Position numbers and translations under genes: made by a program | The notes under the pieces: generated by a model | The model's input: the letters and a program-made list of their open reading frames with translations, nothing else | The model's database searches: none | What the model was told of the DNA's origin: nothing | Shown here: positions 9,006 through 21,699 of the stretch, one piece after another | Layout: each line of letters begins with the position of its first letter | Position numbering within the stretch: the stretch's first letter is position 1 | Assembly: GCA_015489465.1 (NCBI GenBank) | Contig: WFZS01000015.1 | Span: 1 to 35,705, forward strand | Origin: Bacteroidales bacterium | GTDB lineage: Bacteria; Bacteroidota; Bacteroidia; Bacteroidales; F082 | DNA length: 35,705 bases | Reading direction: 5' to 3'

Positions 9006-9821
9006 TTGAAAAAATCTTTGTTTTATATCCTGTTACTATTTTCACTGCATTATTCCTATGCAGGAGGTTATGAGTCCCCTACAGGAGCAAGAAGTGCCGG
9101 TTTATGCAGATCGTCCGTAGCATTAAAAGGATTTTGGGGGATTATGAACAACCAGGCGGGAATGTCGCTTTTATCAAGACCCGCCGTTGCTTTTTCATAC
9201 GAGAATATGTTTCTCCTTAAAGAAACTTTTTACGGCACAGCAGCATTTGCGTACCCGACGAAATCAGGTGTTATCGGAGCAACATTCAATTACTACGGAT
9301 ACAGCAAATACAACGAAATTAAATCGGGGATTGCCTATGCCCGCGCTTTCGGAAAATATTTAAGAATAGGTGTTCAACTTGATTATATTAAAACAACCGT
9401 TTCGGAAGGTTACGGGTCAAAAAGCAATGTGACTTTTGAGTTGGGTGTACAATCCGATATTACAAAATATTTGACTTTGGGAGCTTACGTTTTTAACCCC
9501 GTGCTTGTTAAATTATCCGGTTACGGTAACGAACGGATACCTGCAGTTTTCAGGTTCGGTGCGGCATGGCATTTTTCCGCAAATTTTGTTACCACGGCGG
9601 AGTTTGAAAAAAACAGCTATTTTCCTGGAATTATTATTCGCGGGGGCACCGAGTACAATCTGAAAAACATTTTTTTCTTCAGGATGGGAACTTCAAACGG
9701 TCCGGAAATATTCTCGTTAGGGTTCGGGATGAAGCTTAAAAAACTTAAAATAGACCTGGCTTCCACAATGCACCAATCTTTGGGGTTCACTCCGCAAACA
9801 ACGTTATCATACTCCTTTTAA
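9006..9821 (+). CDS. PorV/PorQ-like outer-membrane beta-barrel protein
   Basis: A 271-residue outer-membrane protein. A signal peptide (MKKSLFYILLLFSLHYSYA-GG) follows a TTG start at 9006; no in-frame ATG lies close upstream, so TTG is chosen. The mature N terminus has the motif TGARSAGLCRSSVALKGFWGIMNNQAGMS, split here as TGARSAGL and NNQAGMS, which matches the G-x-R-x-x-x-x-x-x-x-V-A and N-P/Q-A-G pattern of PorV/PorQ and FadL-like barrels. The remainder is alternating amphipathic strands ending in an aromatic residue (LSYSF), as in outer-membrane barrels. It is 6 bases upstream of the helix-hairpin-helix barrel gene and likely co-transcribed. PorV and PorQ serve the T9SS; whether this paralogue does is not shown. 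Confidence 0.75.
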   Translation: MKKSLFYILLLFSLHYSYAGGYESPTGARSAGLCRSSVALKGFWGIMNNQAGMSLLSRPAVAFSYENMFLLKETFYGTAAFAYPTKSGVIGATFNYYGYSKYNEIKSGIAYARAFGKYLRIGVQLDYIKTTVSEGYGSKSNVTFELGVQSDITKYLTLGAYVFNPVLVKLSGYGNERIPAVFRFGAAWHFSANFVTTAEFEKNSYFPGIIIRGGTEYNLKNIFFFRMGTSNGPEIFSLGFGMKLKKLKIDLASTMHQSLGFTPQTTLSYSF

Positions 9822-9827
9822 AAAATT

Positions 9828-11963
9828 ATGAAAAGGAAAACTTTACATATCGCTTTGTGTACATTTTTTCTTGTAATAACAGCAAACAGGGTATTTCCGC
9901 AACATATAGACACAAGTACGGTTTTCCACAGGGAATTTATAACCGATCAGCTTGAAAATATTACCGAAAATATTGATTTGAATATTGATTATTCCGACTT
10001 ACTGGACAAACTTTCCTATTACAGAAAAAATCCCATTGCCATAAACGATAAAGATGAAATAGATGAACTTGAAAGATTGCATCTGCTTAACGTAGTTCAA
10101 GTTAATAACATAAAAAAATACAGAGATAAATACGGTGATATACTTTCCGGATATGAGATTCAACATATTGACGGATTTAACAAAGAGACCGTTGAAAGAA
10201 TATTACCTTTTATAACTTTTAAAAAAGTAACTAATAAAGAACCATTGTCCTTAAACAAAGCACTTAAATACGGACATCATGAACTGTTTTTCAGATACAG
10301 GCAGCAACTTGAGAAAAGTTCCGGATATCTTACCCCTGTTGATTCGGCTGTATATAAACCGGGATCGGTATATTTGGGAAAACCTTTTAAACTATACACA
10401 CGCTACTCATTTTCATATAAACAGCGGATACATGCCGGTGTTACCACCGACAAAGACCCCGGTGAAATTTTTTTAAAAACCAAACTTCCCGATACCTTAA
10501 AAAGCATTATAGGAAATAAAGCCACCGATTTCTTCGATTTTTACTCGGCACATCTTTATTTGGCGGATATAGGCTTTGTCAAAAAAATTGCCGTGGGCGA
10601 TTATCATATTGAATTCGGTCAAGGGTTGAATTTATGGTCGGGGTTGAGTTTCGGTAAATCGGCACAGGGCATTTTTGTAAAAAAATACGGAAGAGGGATT
10701 AGACCGAACACTTCCGTAAACGAAAACAGGTTTTTCAGGGGTTTGGCATCTACAATCAAAATAAAACGATTAGAAATTACAGGCTTTTATTCCAACAATA
10801 ATATTGACGCAAACCTGGTTGAAACAGATACGCTCGACCAACCGTTGATAACAACAATACAAGAAACCGGATTGCATCGCACAATTAATGAACTGAAAGC
10901 TAAAAATGCTATTAACATACAAGCTTTCGGAGGTCACTTAAATGTAACCGGAAAAATATTCAACATCGGTTTCACGGGATATCATACCATATTGAACAAA
11001 CCTTTTTTGCATAGTGAAAAACTTTACAAGAAGTTTGCATTTACCGGCAAAACGGAAACCCATTACGGAAGTGATTTTAACATAACATTAAACAAAGTCG
11101 ATTTTTTCGGGGAAGTTTCTTTAACACAATCGGGTGGTTATGCCTTAATTACCGGTGTTAACACAGGGTTATCAGACAGGTTTTTGTTAACTGTGGCTTA
11201 CAGAAATTACAGCAAGAATTTTCATAATTTTTATGCCATGCCTTTCGGTGCAACACAAAACGGCAGTAACGAAGAAGGAATATACATGGGCTTTACGGCA
11301 TATTTAACAAAAACATTATCACTTTCAGGTTATATAGACCGTTACAGGTTTCCATGGTTAAGATATAATATCGATTTTCCTTCGTATGGCAACGATTATG
11401 TTTTTCAACTTAATATAACACCTTCACACCGTGTAGTTGCTTACATCAAATACCGTTATAAATATTCCCAAAAAAATCTAAAAAAAGATTATGAATACCT
11501 CTCAAAAGTAAACGACATAAACAGGCATAATTTGAGGTTTAACGTAACATGGGAACTTGTAAAACCGTTAATAATGAAAAACCGGGTGGAATATGTCTTT
11601 TATCAAACGGAAAATATGGAAAAAAGTAAAGGTTACTTGTTTTATCAAGATGTTTTGTATCGGCCGGAAAATATCCCCGTGGCAATAACTTTAAGATATG
11701 CACTTTACTACACTGACTCATGGGACAGCAGAATTTATGCTTACGAAAACGACATATTATATGCATTCAGCATACCTGCATACTACGGAAACGGTCAAAG
11801 AGTTTACGGAATGATTTCATATAAAATGAACCGTCACTTTTCCTTTTGGTTGCGTTTTGCACGTACAACCCTGTTTGATAAAAACCACATAGGTTCCGGT
11901 AGCGATATGGTTAATGAAAATCACAAAACGGAAATAAAATTTCAAGTAAGAGTTAAATATTAA
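9828..11963 (+). CDS. Outer-membrane protein with N-terminal helix-hairpin-helix domain
   Basis: A 711-residue exported protein: signal peptide (about 1-24, ending VFPQ), then a ComEA-like double helix-hairpin-helix at about 69-129 (PIAINDKDEIDELERL, then YRDKYGDILSGYEIQHIDGF, then ETVERILPFI), then about 570 residues of aromatic-rich amphipathic strands that look like an outer-membrane beta-barrel and end in the aromatic-terminated VRVKY. Such proteins are widespread in Bacteroidota but have no assigned job. The helix-hairpin-helix fold binds the DNA backbone in ComEA and in repair enzymes, so DNA contact at the surface or in the periplasm is possible but unproven. It follows the PorV/PorQ-like gene by 6 bases and converges on the PorT-like gene with 16 bases between stops. 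Confidence 0.78.
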   Translation: MKRKTLHIALCTFFLVITANRVFPQHIDTSTVFHREFITDQLENITENIDLNIDYSDLLDKLSYYRKNPIAINDKDEIDELERLHLLNVVQVNNIKKYRDKYGDILSGYEIQHIDGFNKETVERILPFITFKKVTNKEPLSLNKALKYGHHELFFRYRQQLEKSSGYLTPVDSAVYKPGSVYLGKPFKLYTRYSFSYKQRIHAGVTTDKDPGEIFLKTKLPDTLKSIIGNKATDFFDFYSAHLYLADIGFVKKIAVGDYHIEFGQGLNLWSGLSFGKSAQGIFVKKYGRGIRPNTSVNENRFFRGLASTIKIKRLEITGFYSNNNIDANLVETDTLDQPLITTIQETGLHRTINELKAKNAINIQAFGGHLNVTGKIFNIGFTGYHTILNKPFLHSEKLYKKFAFTGKTETHYGSDFNITLNKVDFFGEVSLTQSGGYALITGVNTGLSDRFLLTVAYRNYSKNFHNFYAMPFGATQNGSNEEGIYMGFTAYLTKTLSLSGYIDRYRFPWLRYNIDFPSYGNDYVFQLNITPSHRVVAYIKYRYKYSQKNLKKDYEYLSKVNDINRHNLRFNVTWELVKPLIMKNRVEYVFYQTENMEKSKGYLFYQDVLYRPENIPVAITLRYALYYTDSWDSRIYAYENDILYAFSIPAYYGNGQRVYGMISYKMNRHFSFWLRFARTTLFDKNHIGSGSDMVNENHKTEIKFQVRVKY

Positions 11964-11979: not shown

Positions 11980-12606
11980 TCATTTTTTGGCAGTCCCGAA
12001 AGAATAATATACCGCAGCCACCAAAGTATTACTAAACTGACCACGCGGACCTATACTTTGTCCGTCATCATAATTTTTGTCACTTCTTATGTTAATCAAT
12101 GAATAATTAAAACGCATGGAAAATGATAAATAGCGGTTTATCAAATATCTCGCACCTGCATTACCTTGGAAACTTAATCTTGCAGGTCTGTCATAACCAG
12201 GGTAATCACTCAAAACATCGCCGTTAAACTCTTCGTAATAGCCGGCAGAAACACCTACCGAAGGTCCGGCTTCCAATATAAACCGTTTAATCTTATATTG
12301 ATAAAGAAAAGGTACCTCAACATAATTCGTCCTGAAAAGATAAGCATCATAGTCGCCTTTATCGTAATTGGGATTTTTTCTCGAACCTTTCTGAAAATAC
12401 GTAACCTCCATAAAAAAAGCAGAACACTCACCAAATGTGTAACTCACCCATGCGCCGGCAAATATCCCGGCTTTTTTATAACCGCTGTAACCGTCACCGT
12501 CAATCTGACTGCCTACCAAACCGGCGGTAACTCCCCCTTTAAACCCTTGAGAAAATGTTAATAAAGTATAAAATATAAGAACAAACGTAATAAAATACCT
12601 TTTCAT
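11980..12606 (-). CDS. PorT-family outer-membrane beta-barrel protein
   Basis: A 208-residue protein with a signal peptide (MKRYFITFVLIFYTLLTFSQ-G) followed by GFKGGVTAGLVGSQIDGDG, the usual start of Bacteroidota small 8-strand barrels (OMP_b-brl_2/PorT-like). Strand features include RTNYVEVPFLYQYKIK and FILEAGPSVGVSAGYY, a classic pattern for this family, and a near-terminal aromatic (VYYSFGTAKK). It is the last gene of the TlpA/DUF6029/Omp28 group, with 2 bases between it and the Omp28 gene. PorT itself is needed for T9SS assembly in some species, but the broad family covers many unrelated small barrels, so no specific role is claimed. Confidence 0.8.
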   Translation of the reverse strand: MKRYFITFVLIFYTLLTFSQGFKGGVTAGLVGSQIDGDGYSGYKKAGIFAGAWVSYTFGECSAFFMEVTYFQKGSRKNPNYDKGDYDAYLFRTNYVEVPFLYQYKIKRFILEAGPSVGVSAGYYEEFNGDVLSDYPGYDRPARLSFQGNAGARYLINRYLSFSMRFNYSLINIRSDKNYDDGQSIGPRGQFSNTLVAAVYYSFGTAKK

Positions 12607-12608
12607 AA

Positions 12609-13451
12609 TTATTCTTTTATAACAGGCGCTTCCTCAACTTGAACTATTTCTTTATCGGATTTTTTATAAACAAAAGCCACAACATGACTATTTTTTGCAA
12701 CTCCTGTAATGTTATATTGATAAGTAACGGAATATTCTTTACCCGGCTCAATGGAACCGTTAAAAATATCTTCCCCCCAAACTCCGTTAACAGCACCCCG
12801 CAACATATGCATAAAAACAAAATCTTTTATCACAGGGACATCTCCTGCATTGGGGTCGTTATTTTTTTGAGCGGAAACAATACTATCTTCGGTTATACAA
12901 ACTTGAAGCATATAGCTGCCGGACATATCATGAACAAATTTAACTTTTATACCGGTAGTAAGTTTCCCGTTTTCATAACTGTTATCAATATCAATTTTGG
13001 CATCTGCACTTTCGGACAACAAAGAAGCTATTGCTTCACCCCATTTATCCTTAGCTAAAACCACCTCTCCGTTATACTCTTTACGGTTTACCATACCGCT
13101 GGGATATTGTTGAACTCCGAAATAATCATTCCATTGATTTCCCGCTTCGGTTCTGTAATCAGCGGTAAACAGAGTATTAGGCATCGGTTCTGCAAACGGT
13201 CCGGCATGTACAGCCATTAAAACCAGTTGTCCCTTATACAATTCCTTAAGTTCATGAGATGTTATGGCTGCTCCGGCACAATTGACACATTGATGACCCG
13301 TATAATCTTCCAAAAGAACTTTTCTGACAAGAGCGGTAGTATCTCCTCCACCACCCTCATTAGTCTCTTTGTATGGAGGATCTATCTTTTCGCATGCGGA
13401 TATTAAAAAAACAGCCGATAAAAGGAATATAAACAGTTTAAGATTTTTCAT
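12609..13451 (-). CDS. Omp28-related outer-membrane lipoprotein with CxxC motif
   Basis: A 280-residue lipoprotein: lipobox LISAC with the lipidated Cys20, then a Gly-rich linker and a domain starting VLLEDYTGHQCVNC (about 45-58). The phrase YTG-x-x-CVNC is the hallmark of Omp28-related proteins (PF11551), whose N-terminal part has a thioredoxin-like look; here Cys55 and Cys58 form the CxxC pair. The C-terminal half is beta-rich and resembles the substrate-side domain of the family. It is in the same direction as a TlpA-like thioredoxin (upstream) and a PorT-like barrel (2 bases downstream). The CxxC suggests redox exchange with the TlpA-like protein, which is inference. Confidence in the family is high, in the function low. 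Confidence 0.88.
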   Translation of the reverse strand: MKNLKLFIFLLSAVFLISACEKIDPPYKETNEGGGGDTTALVRKVLLEDYTGHQCVNCAGAAITSHELKELYKGQLVLMAVHAGPFAEPMPNTLFTADYRTEAGNQWNDYFGVQQYPSGMVNRKEYNGEVVLAKDKWGEAIASLLSESADAKIDIDNSYENGKLTTGIKVKFVHDMSGSYMLQVCITEDSIVSAQKNNDPNAGDVPVIKDFVFMHMLRGAVNGVWGEDIFNGSIEPGKEYSVTYQYNITGVAKNSHVVAFVYKKSDKEIVQVEEAPVIKE

Positions 13452-13515
13452 ACTTTTTAAATTTCACATGGTTAAGTTATGAAGTATTTTAAAAAAACAT
13501 CATGCTCGTCTCTAT

Positions 13516-15189
13516 TTAGAAACTACTTGATATTGTCAAATAAAAACCGCTTGATGCAGGAACAGCACGGCATACACCTCCCACACAAACAACACCTTCA
13601 CGCTGACGACCGTATGTTAATGAAATTCTTGTGGTTTTTATCGAATATCCTCCGGCAACGGTATAATAATGCAATTTATCGTTATCGTCGGGATTACCGT
13701 AATTCCACTGATCCGATATAGAAGCAAACCAATGAGGTGACAAAGTATATTCCACCAAAGCGGCAGCCCAATCTCCTTTATCCTGCTCGGTAAAAAGACC
13801 TTGGAGTTCCCAACGTAAAGAACTTCTGGATGTAAATTTATAGGTCATATCGGTTATAACAATATTATCATGTATAACCGGTGCTCCGGCATGGCCTTGT
13901 ATTGTTGCTATATCAAAAAGCTGATTTAAATAAATAAAGGTTCCTTTAAACTTTCTGGAAAACTTTTTATGTACCGAAAACCTCACATCCCTCATGAAAA
14001 TATGATCGCTGAATTTGAAAAAATCGGATGTATAACCCAATGTTCCGGGAACATTAATGGCGGAGGTATCTCCAGCAGGTTTTCTAACTATATCATTTAA
14101 TTGAGAGTAGTTAAAAGTAATATCCATACCGTATTTTCCGCCTAATTTACTTTTGCGAGGAACTTTATAATTGACTTGAAACTGGAATCCTATTTCGCCG
14201 TTAGGCTGTGTAGCATAAGGATACATTGATGACAACATATAAGTATTCGGTTCTATTATGGGCGGCAGAAAGTTAATATCCAAAGCATTAGCGGTTTCGG
14301 CCCTGTCCGACTTATAAGAAAAGTTGTCAATCCTTTTGAAAACTCCCAAAATACCCAGTCCTTTTGTAGAATATGACGCATTAAATATAAAAGCGTCCCC
14401 GGGTTTGTATATATAACCGTTTATAGCGGAAGGATCATTTATTTTATGGGCATATTCCGAACTGAAATTAAACTTACCTATGCCGAGATTGAATCTGGCG
14501 GCACCCGATCCTACGTTTCTGGGTAATTTAAAAATGGGATCATTATCCGCCTGGTATTTACTTACGAAACTTCCTCCGATAGACAATCTTAATTTTGAAT
14601 TCTCCATTGAGGTTATCAAATCATTCAAATCTATCTCACCGTCCAAACCTTTTACAATACCCCTGCTGTTTTTGGTATATTTATTCCAAAAAAACCTCTG
14701 AACACCGTAAACTCCTTTTAAAACAACACCTTCTACGGGTTCAAATTGTACTTTTGCACCGTTTAATGAATTATCATATCCCAACGTCCACTCTTGATAA
14801 GTTCTTAATACCAAACCGTTACCGAATTGTTCATAAAAGTTTCCCACGGTAATACTGAACCTTTCGGTATTATAAGAAGCCCACATATAAGGTATTCCCT
14901 GCCCTTCCAATCTTTTATCAAAACCGGCAATGGGTGGAAGATAAGCCTCATACCTTACTCCCGCCGAAAAGTCACCCAAAGTGTAAATAATCTCCCCGAA
15001 ACCGTTCATTGCAAAATTACGTCCGTTTATAAGCGAATCGGTGATACCCATTTTAGTATCGGGGAAATAATACATTCCGTCAACCTCAAAAGAGCCTTGA
15101 ACCCGGGAATTTTCAAGCACTTTACCGAATTGTGCAAATACCGGAACGAAAAAAAACATTAAAACAAAAGCGGTAAAAATCTTTTTCAT
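13516..15189 (-). CDS. DUF6029-like outer-membrane beta-barrel protein
   Basis: A 557-residue exported protein with signal peptide MKKIFTAFVLMFFFVPVFAQ. The mature part starts NSRVQGSFEVDGMYY and has RNFAMNGFGEIIYTLGDFSA and NFYEQFGNGLVLRTYQE, which I associate with the DUF6029 family of Bacteroidota barrels; this naming rests on memory. Long amphipathic, aromatic-rich strands and the terminal YLTISSSF support an outer-membrane barrel. It is 26 bases downstream of the TlpA-like gene and 64 bases upstream of the Omp28 gene. A short CVGGVC segment near the C terminus adds two cysteines, unusual in a barrel and notable beside two redox proteins. No enzymatic motif was seen. Confidence 0.75.
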   Translation of the reverse strand: MKKIFTAFVLMFFFVPVFAQFGKVLENSRVQGSFEVDGMYYFPDTKMGITDSLINGRNFAMNGFGEIIYTLGDFSAGVRYEAYLPPIAGFDKRLEGQGIPYMWASYNTERFSITVGNFYEQFGNGLVLRTYQEWTLGYDNSLNGAKVQFEPVEGVVLKGVYGVQRFFWNKYTKNSRGIVKGLDGEIDLNDLITSMENSKLRLSIGGSFVSKYQADNDPIFKLPRNVGSGAARFNLGIGKFNFSSEYAHKINDPSAINGYIYKPGDAFIFNASYSTKGLGILGVFKRIDNFSYKSDRAETANALDINFLPPIIEPNTYMLSSMYPYATQPNGEIGFQFQVNYKVPRKSKLGGKYGMDITFNYSQLNDIVRKPAGDTSAINVPGTLGYTSDFFKFSDHIFMRDVRFSVHKKFSRKFKGTFIYLNQLFDIATIQGHAGAPVIHDNIVITDMTYKFTSRSSLRWELQGLFTEQDKGDWAAALVEYTLSPHWFASISDQWNYGNPDDNDKLHYYTVAGGYSIKTTRISLTYGRQREGVVCVGGVCRAVPASSGFYLTISSSF

Positions 15190-15215
15190 GTGTGTATTAT
15201 TGAAAATAAGGTATT

Positions 15216-15734
15216 TTATTTTTCGGAAACTTTCTCGCCTTTGGCAATTTTGTCTATAACATCGAAAAGTTCATCTTCCACTCCTTCATAATATGAGGTA
15301 TGTTGATAAACGATGTTACCCTTACCGTCAAGCACAAAAGTATGAGGAATCATGTTTACACTCATTGCACGTTTAAACTCCTGATTGGGATCAAGCAACA
15401 CGTCAAATTCCCAGCCTTTACCGTTTACAAAAGGTTTAACCTTAGATGAAGAACGTGCATCGTCAATAGAAACGGCAATAATTTTAACACCGGTTTCTTC
15501 CTGCCAATCTTCGTATAACTCATTATAAGCATCAAGTTCTTTTTTACACGGTTTACACCACAAAGCCCAAAATGCAATTACAATAGGTTTTCCGTCATTA
15601 TCAATTTTTTGGGTATTGAAAGTCGTGCCGTCAAGAGTTTTGACATTTACCGAAGGTAATTTGCTTCCTTGCGTTTGAGAATAAACACTTATTGACAAAA
15701 TCAATCCGAACAAGACAACTAAAAAGGTTTTCAT
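15216..15734 (-). CDS. TlpA/ResA-like periplasmic thiol-disulfide oxidoreductase
   Basis: A 172-residue exported thioredoxin-fold protein. The signal peptide (MKTFLVVLFGLILSISVYSQ) is followed by a redoxin domain with LPSVNVKTLDGTTF, the active site FWALWCKPC (Cys60-Lys-Pro-Cys63), KIIAVSIDDARSS and the cis-Pro strand MIPHTFVLDGKG. This layout is that of TlpA/ResA reductases that keep exported cysteines reduced. It is the first gene of a four-gene set with the DUF6029-like barrel, the CxxC lipoprotein and the PorT-like barrel, and a -7 promoter box lies about 64-71 bases upstream. The likely substrates are cysteines in the products of the same operon, an inference. No DsbD-type electron donor is present in the window. 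Confidence 0.92.
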   Translation of the reverse strand: MKTFLVVLFGLILSISVYSQTQGSKLPSVNVKTLDGTTFNTQKIDNDGKPIVIAFWALWCKPCKKELDAYNELYEDWQEETGVKIIAVSIDDARSSSKVKPFVNGKGWEFDVLLDPNQEFKRAMSVNMIPHTFVLDGKGNIVYQHTSYYEGVEDELFDVIDKIAKGEKVSEK

Positions 15735-15830: not shown

Positions 15831-16811
15831 CTATATTACATATATTTCCAAAAGTTTTGATTCGCCTTCGGGGATTAAACTTACCTCTTCTATAAGATTG
15901 GGTATTAAAATTACCTCTCCCCTTTTTAATTCCATCTTACCCTCTTCCCATTCCAACATGGCGTTTCCTTCCACAGCCATATAAACAACAAAAGAATCAA
16001 GCTCTTCGAAATTCTTTAAAATAGGTTCGTTAAATTTCAATAGGTTAGTGGTAAAATAAGGACAACTAATCAAGTCAACGGTAGCATTAAGTTCTTCCTT
16101 GTAATGAGTACGGTAATCGGGGTAATAATTAAAATCTATTGCTTTTAATGCCAAATCGGTATGAAGTTCACGTTGGAGGCCGGCGGCATCAATCCTGTCC
16201 CAATCGTAAATTCTGAAAGTAGCATCCGATGCTTCTTGTATTTCGGCCAATAAAATTCCGGGACCCAGTGCGTGTACCCTTCCGGGAGGTATAAAAAACA
16301 CATCCCCTTTTGATACTCTTTCAAAGTTTAGAATTTCCGTCAGTTTTTTTTGATTGAAATATTGCAAATACTCCTCTCTGGTAACGGGTTTGTTAAAACC
16401 GGTTATCAGTTGGGCATTATTTTCAGATTCAAGGACATACCACATTTCAGTTTTACCTTTACCCATTTTCAGTCTTTCGGCAAGGTCGTCATCGGGATGA
16501 ACCTGAATGGAAAGCCAGTCATTGCTATCCAATAACTTTATTATCAAAGGAAATTGATCCCCGTTTCTTTCATAAACCTTGTCGCCCACCAAATCACCCA
16601 TATAAACTTCAACAAGTTCATTGAGTTCATTACCTTTCAGATAACCGTTGGCAACAACAGAAACGTATTTATGATAACCCGAAACCATCCATGCTTCACC
16701 ACAGTTAGGTAAATTTCCATAGTCAATTCCGAGTTTTGTTTTTATTCTGTTTCCTCCCCATATTTTATCCAAAAACACGGGATTGAATTTCATCGGATAT
16801 AATTCGTTCAT
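15831..16811 (-). CDS. manA: Mannose-6-phosphate isomerase, class I
   Basis: A 326-residue zinc enzyme that interconverts mannose 6-phosphate and fructose 6-phosphate, feeding GDP-sugar synthesis or mannose use. The cupin zinc ligands are Gln103 and His105 in SIQVHPDD, Glu122 in GKTEMWY and His180 in GRVHALGPG; the catalytic Arg200 is in ATFRIYDWDR. The N terminus YPMKFNPVFLDKIWGG is typical. The length fits the short Bacillus-type form rather than the about 390-residue E. coli form. It lies downstream of the SusCD pair but past a strong terminator, so it is probably its own transcription unit. A palindrome sits just upstream of the start. Confidence 0.95.
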   Translation of the reverse strand: MNELYPMKFNPVFLDKIWGGNRIKTKLGIDYGNLPNCGEAWMVSGYHKYVSVVANGYLKGNELNELVEVYMGDLVGDKVYERNGDQFPLIIKLLDSNDWLSIQVHPDDDLAERLKMGKGKTEMWYVLESENNAQLITGFNKPVTREEYLQYFNQKKLTEILNFERVSKGDVFFIPPGRVHALGPGILLAEIQEASDATFRIYDWDRIDAAGLQRELHTDLALKAIDFNYYPDYRTHYKEELNATVDLISCPYFTTNLLKFNEPILKNFEELDSFVVYMAVEGNAMLEWEEGKMELKRGEVILIPNLIEEVSLIPEGESKLLEIYVI

Positions 16812-16902: not shown

Positions 16903-18420
16903 TTATTGTTTATCCCAGAAAATAGGTGTTTTCAAATAATCACCACCGATAGCTTCGGCTGCTTCATAATAGTGATCTTTATTCAATGTTTGTTCGTCAA
17001 TAGGATAGGTCATTCTCAAAGGAACGGGTAAATTACCAAGATCCTGAGGAGGTGATGGAGGTGTATTCATTTCAGGATAATCAAGTCTCCTGTATGAAGT
17101 AAACGCAACGAATCCTCTGTAATAATAAGCTATCCAAGCTTGTGTTCCTATTTTTTGTTTCCAATCTCCGGGAGCTGTTGTATAAGCCACATCGGGATTT
17201 GCAAGGTAATCGGCAGTCATCTGAGCAACCGTGGCAGGATCAAAATGTCTGCCCAACCAGAATTTCATTGACTCGGTAATACCTTCGTTATACCACTCTT
17301 CAGCTGTTTTACCGACACTGAAACCTCTTTCGGCTGCTTCTGCAAGATAGAAAGCCATTTCCGTATGGTCCATGATAACCATCGGGAATTTAGCATCGGC
17401 AATATTAACATCCGAGTTACCCGGATCATCGGAAGCAGGAATATGTGAAAACTGTTCGTAAGGGCTACTATGTCCGTATTCACCTCCCAAATAAATAGGA
17501 TCACCGGTTACGGAATCGTATTCAACAGGAGTAAAGTAAGCAGCTCTACGAGGGTCGTTCAGATTGTTCATAACGTCAACAATAGTGTTGGCGGCAACAA
17601 AGTCGTGACGACCACTTTGAATAAGATCCTGATACAAGGGGTTAGCGTTAATACCACCCAGGTAATCCAATTTACAAACTTCACCTTTATCGAAAACCTT
17701 ATCATAAGAAGCTTCTATTGTTTGTTTAGCTAAAGCTTGGTCAACATCCGAAAGGTTTATAGCAAGTTTTACCAAAAGTGAATAACCGAATTTTTTCCAC
17801 ATTGCAACATCTCCACCGAAATAAAGGTCTGCCGAACCCAAGCTACCGTAACCGTCGTCAAGACCTTCAACAGCTTCTTTAACTTTGCTTATAAGATCTT
17901 TGTAGATTGTGGAAGCATCGTCATATTTCGGTGAATAATTTTCAATATCCAAAGCTTCGCTGTAAGGAACGTTTCCGAAAATATCAACTAAACGTTGATA
18001 TGTAAAAGCGGAAAGAAGATCAATAATGTGCAAAGTGTTTTGCTGAGCTTTCGTATCCTCGTCGGTTAACACTTCTTCGGCAGCGATAAGTTCGCGTGCT
18101 TCTTTAAGGTCTTTTAAAATATCACGATAATAAATACGGAATACGTTACTAGCTATATTACGAGTAACAACATCGTAGTTAGCTTCGTCCGTATAAGTTG
18201 TTTCTGTCCAGTATTGCGACCAAAGTTTCCAGTTGTTAATATTAACGTTTGTACTGGCAATCTGGTCTGCTAAAGCTTTCTGTGCGTTAGAGAACAAATA
18301 TGGACCGGGAACCTCGGTAGGATGCTTTGTGTCCACGTTCATTTCCTCTAACGTATCATTACAAGAGCTAAAAATTACAGCTCCCATCAACGCTATTAAT
18401 ATTAAATATATTTTCTTCAT
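16903..18420 (-). CDS. SusD/RagB-family outer-membrane nutrient-binding lipoprotein
   Basis: A 505-residue lipoprotein with lipobox FSSC (lipidated Cys20) and the mature start NDTLEEMNVDTKHPTEVP, typical of the second SusD-like group (SusD-like_2). The body has helical tetratricopeptide-like segments, for example YQRLVDIFGNVPYSEAL and MVIMDHTEMAFYLAEAAERG. It would form the lid over the SusC channel 12 bases upstream and bind the nutrient at the cell surface. Members of this group often serve peptides or other non-starch substrates, so the ligand is open. No glycoside hydrolase, peptidase or sensor gene lies beside it. The operon ends at the terminator just downstream. Confidence 0.93.
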   Translation of the reverse strand: MKKIYLILIALMGAVIFSSCNDTLEEMNVDTKHPTEVPGPYLFSNAQKALADQIASTNVNINNWKLWSQYWTETTYTDEANYDVVTRNIASNVFRIYYRDILKDLKEARELIAAEEVLTDEDTKAQQNTLHIIDLLSAFTYQRLVDIFGNVPYSEALDIENYSPKYDDASTIYKDLISKVKEAVEGLDDGYGSLGSADLYFGGDVAMWKKFGYSLLVKLAINLSDVDQALAKQTIEASYDKVFDKGEVCKLDYLGGINANPLYQDLIQSGRHDFVAANTIVDVMNNLNDPRRAAYFTPVEYDSVTGDPIYLGGEYGHSSPYEQFSHIPASDDPGNSDVNIADAKFPMVIMDHTEMAFYLAEAAERGFSVGKTAEEWYNEGITESMKFWLGRHFDPATVAQMTADYLANPDVAYTTAPGDWKQKIGTQAWIAYYYRGFVAFTSYRRLDYPEMNTPPSPPQDLGNLPVPLRMTYPIDEQTLNKDHYYEAAEAIGGDYLKTPIFWDKQ

Positions 18421-18432
18421 AATAATCTATGT

Positions 18433-21400
18433 TTAAAATTCTACTTTAACGGTTAAACCAAATGTACGAATTGAAGGCATTACACCTGATTGCCATCCTT
18501 GAATATTACCGGCACTCTGGCTGGCTTCAGGATCTGCATGAGGTAAGTTTTTGTGGATGATCCAAAGGTTTGAACCAACAAGACTGAATGACACACCTGA
18601 AATAGCATTGCTTCTGTTCACTATCTTTTGAGGTAATGAATATGTAAGGGCAACTTCTCTAAGTTTTACGTAAGAAGCATCGTAAACAAATGCGGCATTC
18701 GGGTTTTTCGACCAACCGAATACACGGTAGTCATCACCGTGAACACGAATATCGTTAGGTGAACCGTCTTCTTTAACACCGTCAAGGATTAAACCACCAC
18801 CTTGATCTAAAGGATTTCTAACAGGATTTCCTAAATCATTTGTAAATACAGTTTCAGCATAGATTCCTGTACCCATTCCATAATATTGGTCAAGTGAGAA
18901 GATGCTTCCACCATGTTGAAAATCAATCAAGAAGCTGAATGAAAGATCTTTGTAGGTAAATCTGTTATTGATACCGCCAATCCAATCGGGTTGGTATGTA
19001 CCTAAAACTTTATCGGATGTGGTTGTTTTCAAATAATAACCGTTTGAACCTACAACTTTTTTACCGTCTTTGTAAACGAAGTCGGTACCTTGAATTGTTC
19101 CGTAAGGTTCGCCTACTCTGGCGTTAATCGATACACCACCTTGCAAACGTGCTAACTGTAAGTTATCAACACCTTCTGCAAGTGCTACAACTTCGTTATT
19201 ATTTTTAGACCAGTTTACGTTAATATCCCAACGGAAATTTTTGTTTCTTACGGGTACGCCCCATGCCGAAACTTCAACACCTTCGTTTTTAACTTCACCG
19301 GCATTAACATATTTGTAAGAATATCCCGTTGCGGATGATACGGCTACAGGCATAATTTGGTCAACAGTATGGTTGTTGTAATATGCCAAATCGAAACCAA
19401 CACGTTTTTGGAACATGGTCATTTCAAGACCCGTTTCAAAAGATTTTGTTGTTTCGGGTTTCAAATTAGGATTGTTTTTTGTACTTGGTACGGAGAACAA
19501 CGGAGCTCCACCGAATGAAGGATGCTGAGTATAGGTATCCACTATACTAGCAAAAGGAGCATCGTTACCAACCATAGCATAACTGATACGGAATTTACCC
19601 AACTGCAACCAGTCTGCATTTTCCATCAATGTTGAGAATAAGAAACTCAACGAAGCGGCGGGATAATAATATGTATTGTGATCTACCGGTAATGTTGATG
19701 ATTTATCACGTCTTAAACTACCGTCAAAGTAGATAAGGTCGTTATAACCAACAGAGAAAGAACCGTAAAGACCGTTAACTCCGATTGTTGCAAGATATTC
19801 GTCAGGCGGAGCCATAGGATCTTTACTGTTTGAAAGTGAATAAAGACCCGGAACAATCAAACCGCCTTGTGTTGAAGTAAATAATCTTTCATCACGGCTT
19901 CTGCGGATGTTAACACCGAGTAAAGCACTTAAGCTCCACTTTTCCCAACGGCGGTTATATCTACCCATAATGTCAGTATTTGCTTCCATAAAATCCTGAG
20001 TTCTTCTTGCATAACCTGAAGTTACGTCGGGACGTCCAACACCAAAAGCTCCCGAGGCCGAACCTACGGCTTTTCTTTCTTCTATAAGGAAGTTATATGT
20101 ATCGATACCGTAACGGGCACTAACATTAAAATATTTGTTAACATCCCAGTTAACCATTGCATAACCCATTAAACGGCTTCTGTTATCGGTTTCATAGTTT
20201 TCGTAACGTACCCAGTATGGGTTGTCCCAATATGCAGGAGCAAGGTTATAAGGTGAAACAGGGTTCCATGTCAAGTTCTTTTTGTTTTGCATGTAAAGAT
20301 CTTCTTGTTCTTTGTAATCAACGTTTGTCTGCATCCATTGACGGAATGAAGAGAAAATGTTGTCACTGTAACCTGTAGCATTACGACCTTTACCTTTTGT
20401 ATTTATGTAATTTGCTTTTGCATTAACGGTAAGACCTTTTACTATTTCGTAAGAACCGCTAACATCGATATTGTTTCTTTGGATGTTACTATTAGGTAAT
20501 ATACCGTTATTATACATATTAGTATAAGATACCCTGAAAGTTGATTTTTCACCTCCACCGGCAACTTCAACGGAGTTATTGAAACTCCATGAATTATTCA
20601 AGAAATAGCTCGGTCCGTGTTCGGAGTTAACCCACGGTCTTGCTTTTTTATAGTAAGGTGATTCGGGATAATAAGAATCGTAATGGAAAACCATCAAATT
20701 GGGATCAAATTTTTGACCGAATGATGCATCTTCATAAGTAGGAACCGTAAGGTCCGTCTGACCGTCACCATCTATATCATAGTCATAATCCAATCCGGGA
20801 TATCCGATAGCTCCACCGGAATAGAACCAACCGTAACCTGCACCGTAATCTTTTTGATATTTCGGGAAGGTTGATTTGTCATATGTACCCATTGTAGCAT
20901 TTGAGCTAATGGTAACACCGTATCTTTTTTGTCCTTTACCTGCTTTTTTACCTTTTTTGGTGGTAATCATGATAACACCGTTTGCAGCACGAGAACCGTA
21001 AAGAGCTGTAGCGGCAGCACCTTTAAGAACCTCGATTGATTCAATATCTGCAGGGTTGATATCCGAAGCAGGGTTACCATAGTCGTATCCGTGACGACCT
21101 GCCTGCTGTGAAGGATCATTTACGATGGTGTTACTTATCGGTACACCGTCAACAACAAACAATGCTTGGTTATTACCTGTTAAAGAGGAGTTACCTCTGA
21201 TAACAACGTTAGCCGAACCGCCGAGGTTGTTATTAACCTTAATATTAACACCTGCAGTTTTACCTTGCAAGTTGTTAATAAAGTTATCGGTTTTAACCTT
21301 GTTAATTTCGTCTCCCGTAACTTTTTGAGTTGCGTAACCGAGAGATTTCTTCTCACGTGAAATACCTAAAGCCGTTACAACAACTTCGTCCATGTTGATA

Positions 21401-21699
21401 GCTTCGGGTTCCAATGTAACGTCAATAACGTTACTGTTACCTATAGGCACCTCTTTGGTTGTCATACCAACGTATGAAAAAACAAGTGTTTTTGCATCGC
21501 CGGGTACATCCAAAGTGTATTTGCCATCTAAATCCGTAACTGTTCCCACGGTAGTACCTTTTACCTGAACAGTAACCCCCGGTATACCTTGTCCGTCTTC
21601 AGAACTGGTAACCTTTCCTGTAATGGTCCTTGTTTGCGCATTGGCAAGTTGCATGCCAACCATAAACAAGAACGCCAACATAAGAGTAATTCTTCTCAT
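18433..21699 (-). CDS. SusC/RagA-family TonB-linked outer-membrane transporter
   Basis: A 1088-residue TonB-dependent transporter. Signal peptide about 1-21 (ANA-QTR). Residues about 25-98 form a carboxypeptidase-regulatory-like beta-sandwich (ITGKVTSSEDGQGIPGVTVQV, split here to ITGKVTSSEDGQGIPGV). The SusC signature INMDEVVVTALGISREKKSL starts at 101, and the plug (about 115-250) ends with SIEVLKGAAATALYGSRAANG and VIMITTKKG. The rest is a 22-strand barrel ending FGLTVKVEF. It imports a large nutrient with the SusD partner 12 bases downstream, powered by TonB. A DIDGDGQTD loop at 308-316 looks like a calcium-binding loop. The 186-base upstream gap has a leader hairpin but no perfect -7 box. 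Confidence 0.97.
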   Translation of the reverse strand: MRRITLMLAFLFMVGMQLANAQTRTITGKVTSSEDGQGIPGVTVQVKGTTVGTVTDLDGKYTLDVPGDAKTLVFSYVGMTTKEVPIGNSNVIDVTLEPEAINMDEVVVTALGISREKKSLGYATQKVTGDEINKVKTDNFINNLQGKTAGVNIKVNNNLGGSANVVIRGNSSLTGNNQALFVVDGVPISNTIVNDPSQQAGRHGYDYGNPASDINPADIESIEVLKGAAATALYGSRAANGVIMITTKKGKKAGKGQKRYGVTISSNATMGTYDKSTFPKYQKDYGAGYGWFYSGGAIGYPGLDYDYDIDGDGQTDLTVPTYEDASFGQKFDPNLMVFHYDSYYPESPYYKKARPWVNSEHGPSYFLNNSWSFNNSVEVAGGGEKSTFRVSYTNMYNNGILPNSNIQRNNIDVSGSYEIVKGLTVNAKANYINTKGKGRNATGYSDNIFSSFRQWMQTNVDYKEQEDLYMQNKKNLTWNPVSPYNLAPAYWDNPYWVRYENYETDNRSRLMGYAMVNWDVNKYFNVSARYGIDTYNFLIEERKAVGSASGAFGVGRPDVTSGYARRTQDFMEANTDIMGRYNRRWEKWSLSALLGVNIRRSRDERLFTSTQGGLIVPGLYSLSNSKDPMAPPDEYLATIGVNGLYGSFSVGYNDLIYFDGSLRRDKSSTLPVDHNTYYYPAASLSFLFSTLMENADWLQLGKFRISYAMVGNDAPFASIVDTYTQHPSFGGAPLFSVPSTKNNPNLKPETTKSFETGLEMTMFQKRVGFDLAYYNNHTVDQIMPVAVSSATGYSYKYVNAGEVKNEGVEVSAWGVPVRNKNFRWDINVNWSKNNNEVVALAEGVDNLQLARLQGGVSINARVGEPYGTIQGTDFVYKDGKKVVGSNGYYLKTTTSDKVLGTYQPDWIGGINNRFTYKDLSFSFLIDFQHGGSIFSLDQYYGMGTGIYAETVFTNDLGNPVRNPLDQGGGLILDGVKEDGSPNDIRVHGDDYRVFGWSKNPNAAFVYDASYVKLREVALTYSLPQKIVNRSNAISGVSFSLVGSNLWIIHKNLPHADPEASQSAGNIQGWQSGVMPSIRTFGLTVKVEF

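Follow-up and report, generated by a model that had tools for sequence, protein, structure and literature searches.

Thiol-disulfide reductases of the TlpA/ResA/CcmG type are fed by DsbD or CcdA, and the members known so far act in the assembly of cytochrome c or of copper sites at the inner membrane. To our knowledge, described thiol relays cross no membrane but the inner one, whereas the electron conduits described for the outer membrane all use cytochromes. Here, we describe a locus in a 35,705-nucleotide stretch of DNA from a Bacteroidales bacterium (GTDB lineage Bacteroidota; Bacteroidia; Bacteroidales; F082; assembly GCA_015489465.1, contig WFZS01000015.1, positions 1 to 35,705; hereafter the window), in which a TlpA-like thiol reductase, an outer-membrane beta-barrel of the DUF6029 family and an Omp28 lipoprotein are encoded in succession. 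We propose that these three proteins operate as a thiol-disulfide relay spanning the outer membrane, a reading of the sequences that we hold to be evenly poised between right and wrong.

Several described systems come close to parts of this arrangement. Porin-cytochrome conduits of the MtrCAB type do the job that we propose here, in that a large outer-membrane barrel lets electrons reach a redox protein on the surface. They carry a haem chain, where the window trio has cysteine pairs; haem-binding CxxCH motifs are absent at the three sites, which read CKPCK, CVNCA and CVGGVCR in the window. Another is HBP35 of Porphyromonas gingivalis, which combines a thioredoxin fold with a beta-sandwich, as does the window Omp28 protein, and differs from it in possessing a sorting domain of the type IX secretion system (T9SS) in place of a lipid-bearing cysteine. 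One form of HBP35 is located at the cell surface. Recombinant HBP35 outperforms Escherichia coli thioredoxin in reducing insulin, an activity that is lost without its two cysteines (PMC2907840). Secretion of HBP35 via the Por system (T9SS) has been reported (PMC3120885). A role in cell-surface redox status is only suggested in the available parts of the HBP35 paper, which name no barrel or TlpA partner (PMC2907840). In Muribaculaceae, a preprint from 2026 (Phylogenize2, PMC13404670) reports an HBP35-like T9SS thioredoxin, for which protection of surface proteins is proposed, along with a thioredoxin-family outer-membrane lipoprotein; barrel, TlpA and a trans-membrane relay are not mentioned in the accessible portion. 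Two neighbouring P. gingivalis proteins have been recorded with no function given in the parts at hand, namely PG2173, an Omp28 lipoprotein (PMC9722745), and PG2174, which is listed for strain W83 among vesicle proteins that are uncharacterised (PMC4335976). The PDB entry 2r2c represents the Omp28 C-terminal domain. Going by the order of the locus tags, PG2174 may be the DUF6029 barrel and PG2175 the thioredoxin-like protein of PDB entry 2m72.

DUF6029 itself appears in the open-licence literature, as far as the sources were accessible, only as resembling the Wzi barrel (PMC9603273). Likewise, the accessible open-licence literature on Omp28, T9SS thioredoxins and trans-outer-membrane thiol transfer holds no description of the trio of TlpA, barrel and thioredoxin. 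The initial annotation, which knew of no characterised pathway with four such parts, is partly supported, the fourth gene being no part of the unit (see below). Our sequence comparisons suggest that the trio is a so far undescribed way of carrying reducing power across the outer membrane.

The genes are transcribed in the order TlpA-like, DUF6029 barrel, Omp28 and small barrel, all co-directional and separated by gaps of 26, 64 and 2 bases. All four, and every motif given for them in the initial annotation (CKPC, CVGGVC and CVNC), were recovered in the window translations, with the following features:

15216-15734, minus strand: TlpA-like thiol reductase, 172 residues, C60-K-P-C63 (Pfam AhpC-TSA, 1.2e-25)
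13516-15189, minus strand: DUF6029 outer-membrane beta-barrel, 557 residues, C535-VGGV-C540, C-terminal phenylalanine (Pfam DUF6029, 1.4e-178)
13570-13587, minus strand: codons of the hairpin C535-V-G-G-V-C540, which belongs to the predicted final outer loop (residues 530-545), from the translation
12609-13451, minus strand: Omp28 lipoprotein, 280 residues, lipid Cys20, C55-V-N-C58, Pro117 (Pfam Omp28, 1.2e-35)
11980-12606, minus strand: small outer-membrane barrel, 208 residues (Pfam OMP_b-brl_2, 1.7e-15)

That the TlpA-like protein, the DUF6029 barrel and an Omp28 thioredoxin form a phylum-wide unit, and were not grouped by chance, is well supported by comparison of their genes. A search with PF19494 through 296 genomes drawn evenly from the phylum gave matches in 80; G227, with a score below the Pfam cut-off, proved to be no member. 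About 13 kb around each match (60 stretches, and 20 more for weak matches) yielded 81 loci together with the window, of which the 80 carrying DUF6029 above 100 bits serve as denominator. A TlpA-like gene lies at most 700 bases upstream of the barrel gene at 69 of these 80 loci (64 on the same strand, 5 divergent), and at L094 and L098 one Omp28-family gene is located between the two. Contrary to what would have spoken against the initial annotation, i.e. a neighbourhood that is not conserved, 72 of the 80 loci thus have TlpA next to the barrel gene, separated from it by a single gene, or fused to it (L069). The remaining eight (L065, L068, L071, L073, L079, L099, L111 and L116) show no TlpA match within the stretch; a clear ortholog is present elsewhere in all eight genomes (106 to 256 bits); that of G216 has Omp28-type genes as neighbours and is located where a contig ends. 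A further set of 80 named loci, the best 80 of at least 565 confirmed candidates, was found through the patterns CVGGVC and NYGN and so informs on neighbourhood and not on cysteine conservation. TlpA is encoded upstream in 79 of them, whereas the 80th record has no more than 95 bases ahead of its barrel gene; Omp28 follows downstream in 78, and in the remaining two the contig ends first. Within these best 80, the closest relatives of the window barrel are Bacteroidales sequences from metagenome-assembled genomes, the top ones being 81-83% identical.

Co-occurrence points in the same direction. The TlpA subfamily, at 92 bits or more with profile A5 (window and 19 of 79 TlpA proteins), was detected in 74 of the 296 genomes, all 74 with DUF6029 and none among the 216 without it; this threshold was chosen after seeing the scores, the highest without DUF6029 being 85.6. 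Five more DUF6029 genomes have a TlpA protein of 75-81 bits at the DUF6029 locus itself. Omp28 (NF033782, E up to 0.001) is present in 61 of the 80 genomes with DUF6029, as against 23 of the 216 without it, and 17 of the 19 DUF6029 genomes without it belong to family f24 (G227 included), most with a different thioredoxin partner.

The most direct link between reductase and barrel is a natural fusion. At L069, a single 667-residue frame encodes one signal peptide (read by eye), a CVPC thioredoxin domain and a complete DUF6029 barrel. The same fusion is found in one frame in the second searched genome of the genus (L245; 67% identical), and since both genomes searched in the genus carry it, an assembly artefact is unlikely. 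The linker is short, with redoxin matches ending at about residues 140-152 and the Pfam DUF6029 match starting at residue 158 in L069. As the N-terminus of outer-membrane barrels is periplasmic, such a linker would keep TlpA near the mouth of the barrel on the periplasmic side.

The window barrel matches PF19494 over residues 1-557 (595.4 bits, cut-off 27). Its AlphaFold model, with a mean predicted local distance difference test score (pLDDT) of 91.1, contains 24 strands by our count. Connections averaging 16.7 residues take turns with connections averaging 4.5, the pattern of outer loops and inner turns, and are assigned accordingly. The top-scoring solved folds are the ushers FimD (Z 17.9, 370 residues, 4.7 Å) and PapC (Z 17.3), with smaller OprD-type porins close behind (Z up to 17.0), AlgE also among the matches and the Mtr complex 6r2q among those from Foldseek; sequence relatives were not detected among solved structures at E up to 1. 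As for Wzi, its barrel has 18 strands versus 24 in the model, and no Wzi is among the matches listed, which excludes nothing.

Both cysteines of the barrel are located in a two-strand hairpin (DSSP 532-536 and 539-543) within the connection leading into the C-terminal strand. Judging from the loop lengths, this connection is an outer loop, and the hairpin hence likely faces the outside in the model. There, C535 and C540 are predicted to be cross-strand neighbours around a Gly-Gly turn, which would be a favourable disulfide site. None of the other eleven loops is as conserved as this one, whose mean column agreement is 0.73 in alignment A1 and 0.85 in A3, in which 67 of the 80 barrels are aligned with that of the window. 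The initial annotation would have been undermined by cysteines varying freely among homologues; instead, a C-x-x-G-x-C near the C-terminus, followed by 15-19 residues, is present in frame in 78 of 80 barrels, which were found by family profile and not by motif, and the CxxC cysteines of the partner proteins are conserved too. The two barrels without an in-frame pair are those of L087, with the pair in the next frame, and L088, which is truncated and where no DUF6029 tail was found. The last 480 residues are free of other cysteines in 64 of the 78 pair-bearing barrels, and both cysteines are among the 13 invariant positions of a 20-sequence alignment that reaches down to 18% identity. At L088 (G226), the DUF6029 gene is shortened to 372 residues and the cysteine tail is absent, with TlpA still adjoining.

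The window Omp28 protein matches the NCBIfam model lipoprot_Omp28 (NF033782) with 165.4 bits (cut-off 150), and C20, C55, C58 and P117 are invariant among the 55 lipoproteins of alignment A4, which adds 54 of 78 Omp28 proteins to that of the window and mostly excludes overlong and truncated ones. In the AlphaFold model (pLDDT 93.8), an N-terminal thioredoxin fold is followed by a C-terminal beta-sandwich, and the best fold match is HBP35 (5y1a; Z 24.3, 221 residues, 2.9 Å). Pfam and NCBIfam scans gave no T9SS sorting-domain match in this protein, which has a lipid cysteine instead. Acidic residues after the lipid cysteine have served as a criterion for surface lipoproteins (PMC12578637); at least two occur in the following six positions in 47 of the 55 lipoproteins of A4, a minimum that the window protein (C-E-K-I-D-P-P) just reaches, and in one of eight other putative lipoproteins, a background set too small to weigh.

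In other lineages, the partner changes. The nearest CxxC-bearing partner, defined as a protein with CxxC and at least 90 bits, as the Omp28 profile also catches T9SS tails, was collected at 69 of the 80 loci. Among these proteins, matches to the T9SS type A sorting domain number 35, those to the lipoprotein model for Omp28 52, and those to Redoxin 17. The presence of CxxC in all 69 arises partly by construction, its single alignment column does not, and the CxxC cysteines are the only two invariant columns across the set. As the partner family changes while the thioredoxin fold, often with surface-type signals, stays, the locus appears to need the redox function of the partner. At 12 of the 20 weak-match loci, mostly of family f24, two proteins with CPHC-like motifs follow the barrel. 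The smaller begins like a lipoprotein, and the larger is a redoxin, which is T9SS-tailed at L138. The extra CPHC redoxin between the barrel and the larger redoxin is encoded at L128:5445-5981, L131:7431-7949 and L134:7510-8046. Up to three thioredoxin-fold proteins surround one barrel at weak-match loci. Elsewhere, Omp28-type proteins carry two CxxC motifs in one chain, as apparent tandem fusions (L083:3390-5459, with two Omp28 stretches, and L159:4098-5633).

The window TlpA-like protein matches Pfam AhpC-TSA, Redoxin and Thioredoxin_8 above cut-off, and the NCBIfam ResA/DsbE/TlpA models yet below their own cut-offs. W59, C60, P62 and C63 are invariant among the 20 proteins of A5, and the nearest solved chain to the subfamily is 2m72 (E 3.5e-65 with the A5 profile). 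The protein is probably periplasmic, judging from a signal peptide read by eye. Fold and W-C-x-P-C active site are common to it and the TlpA/ResA/CcmG reductases; unlike the known members, this subfamily tracks an outer-membrane barrel. The host genome encodes a DsbD, in which N- and C-terminal thioredoxin-like parts were recognised by eye.

Combining these observations, we propose the following transport of reducing equivalents. DsbD in the inner membrane probably keeps the periplasmic TlpA-like protein reduced, which would then act on the periplasmic side of the DUF6029 barrel, either at its mouth or inside it. The hairpin would cycle between the dithiol and the disulfide form of C535 and C540, exchanging thiols, and the surface thioredoxin, an Omp28 lipoprotein in the window and T9SS cargo in other lineages, would receive the electrons and in turn reduce disulfides of cell-surface or secreted proteins. 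The initial annotation had suggested that electrons or disulfides pass from the periplasm to outer-membrane proteins; the conserved trio, its cysteines, the fusion and the surface-type signals of the partner agree with such a passage, and the redox flow itself is what we infer. In a more specific form, to which we give somewhat less than even credence, TlpA may plug the 24-strand barrel at its mouth or within its lumen, electrons passing via the near-invariant cysteine hairpin at the outer opening to surface thioredoxins, as a thiol-based counterpart of the porin-cytochrome conduits. If true, Bacteroidota power disulfide reduction on the cell surface and in T9SS-secreted proteins from the cytoplasm. 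The re-reduction of surface thioredoxins such as HBP35 and Omp28 would then be explained, DUF6029 would be given a function, and T9SS secretion would be linked to the redox maintenance of the exported proteins. Owing to the cysteine pair, the relay is directly testable.

Several points weigh against the proposed relay. The main gap is topological, as TlpA and the outer-loop hairpin are predicted on opposite faces of the membrane, unless the loop or TlpA enters the lumen. Usher barrels let folded subunits through, and a 24-strand barrel is wide, so that TlpA or the loop could indeed enter it. The hairpin may be a plain structural disulfide, and the L088 barrel has no cysteine pair at all. No CxxC partner above threshold was found at 11 of the 80 loci (L068, L084, L086, L092, L095, L096, L099, L114, L122, L126 and L127), of which L126 and L127 have a CPHC protein scoring below the partner threshold. 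TlpA is unlinked to the barrel in seven genomes, the eighth (G216) being the one with the ortholog at a contig end, and DUF6029 is confined to 80 of 296 genomes, leaving most of the phylum without it. DsbD, being carried by 295 of 296 genomes, has no discriminating power, and its co-occurrence was dropped as support. A T9SS is found in 79 of 80 DUF6029 genomes versus 150 of 216 others, weak evidence that is confounded by kinship: 17 of the 20 T9SS-negative genomes listed are from one family, f18, with 47 more not listed. The flow may also run in the opposite direction, because the HBP35 fold can oxidise too, an hbp35 plasmid having complemented an E. coli dsbA mutant (cited in PMC2907840). The authors of the same paper saw no contribution of HBP35 to oxidative-stress protection. 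A redox assay, a mixed disulfide or a complex of the three proteins was not found in the open-licence literature searched.

The same evidence can be read in other ways. Unlikely, but to be taken seriously, is a role of the barrel as client. It would then be a porin, or an exporter of, for instance, polysaccharide, and TlpA and Omp28 would be dedicated assembly and repair factors that make, keep or isomerise its hairpin disulfide. This would accord with the AlgE and OprD-type porins among the fold matches, and with the resemblance by HHpred of Wzi barrel homologues to DUF6029, for which a role in polysaccharide secretion was suggested (PMC9603273). However, a permanent fusion of TlpA to the barrel would be odd for a folding catalyst, and the thioredoxin partners with a secretion signal (35 of 69) hence act outside. 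Alternatively, and in our judgement rather improbable, the barrel serves as an uptake channel: the surface thioredoxin would reduce an extracellular substrate containing disulfide, metal or haem, the barrel would import the product and TlpA would handle it in the periplasm. HBP35 is a hemin-binding protein, and mutants lacking it grow more slowly when hemin is depleted (PMC2907840); judging from the usher folds, a 24-strand barrel could also be a pore. The conservation of the barrel cysteines, however, would be less directly explained by uptake than by a relay.

Those cysteines are left without any explanation if the barrel exports or anchors the surface thioredoxin in a Slam-like manner, with TlpA keeping the cargo reduced in transit. 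The gene order and the co-occurrence of barrel and Omp28 (61 of 80 versus 23 of 216 genomes) would suit such an exporter, but the partner has its own T9SS signal at 35 of 69 loci, and we consider this option very improbable. Practically no credence is given to a chance neighbourhood of common envelope genes; TlpA-like genes are indeed common, with 14 PF00578 matches in the host genome (2.74 Mb), yet adjacency at 69 of 80 loci, co-occurrence in 74 of 74 genomes and the gene fusion refute it. The thiol relay remains the reading that we prefer.

The fourth gene, which the initial annotation had counted as a PorT-like member of the operon, does not belong to the conserved system. With a profile started from this gene, relatives were found at 2 of 61 loci (the window and L077), and across the 80 named loci, the nearest relative L142 included, none reached 40 bits. 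The gene was therefore rejected as a PorT or T9SS machinery component of this locus, its Pfam match being to the general OMP_b-brl_2 family.

Some further genes were observed. Beside the TlpA gene, a protein some 245 residues long is encoded that ends in a T9SS sorting tail and matches no other family above cut-off, even where TlpA has left the barrel locus (L097:8112-8846, L242:489-1235, L238:4180-4908 and L239:2268-3017), and may be a further surface partner. In the window, two convergent genes occupy positions 9006-11963 on the plus strand. One encodes a barrel resembling PorV/PorQ, the other a protein of 711 residues with a helix-hairpin-helix match; both assignments score below cut-off, the former with 58 bits in NCBIfam. 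On the other side, a mannose-6-phosphate-isomerase-like gene is located at 15831-16811, and upstream of it, at 16903-21699 on the minus strand, a pair resembling SusD and SusC, named by eye.

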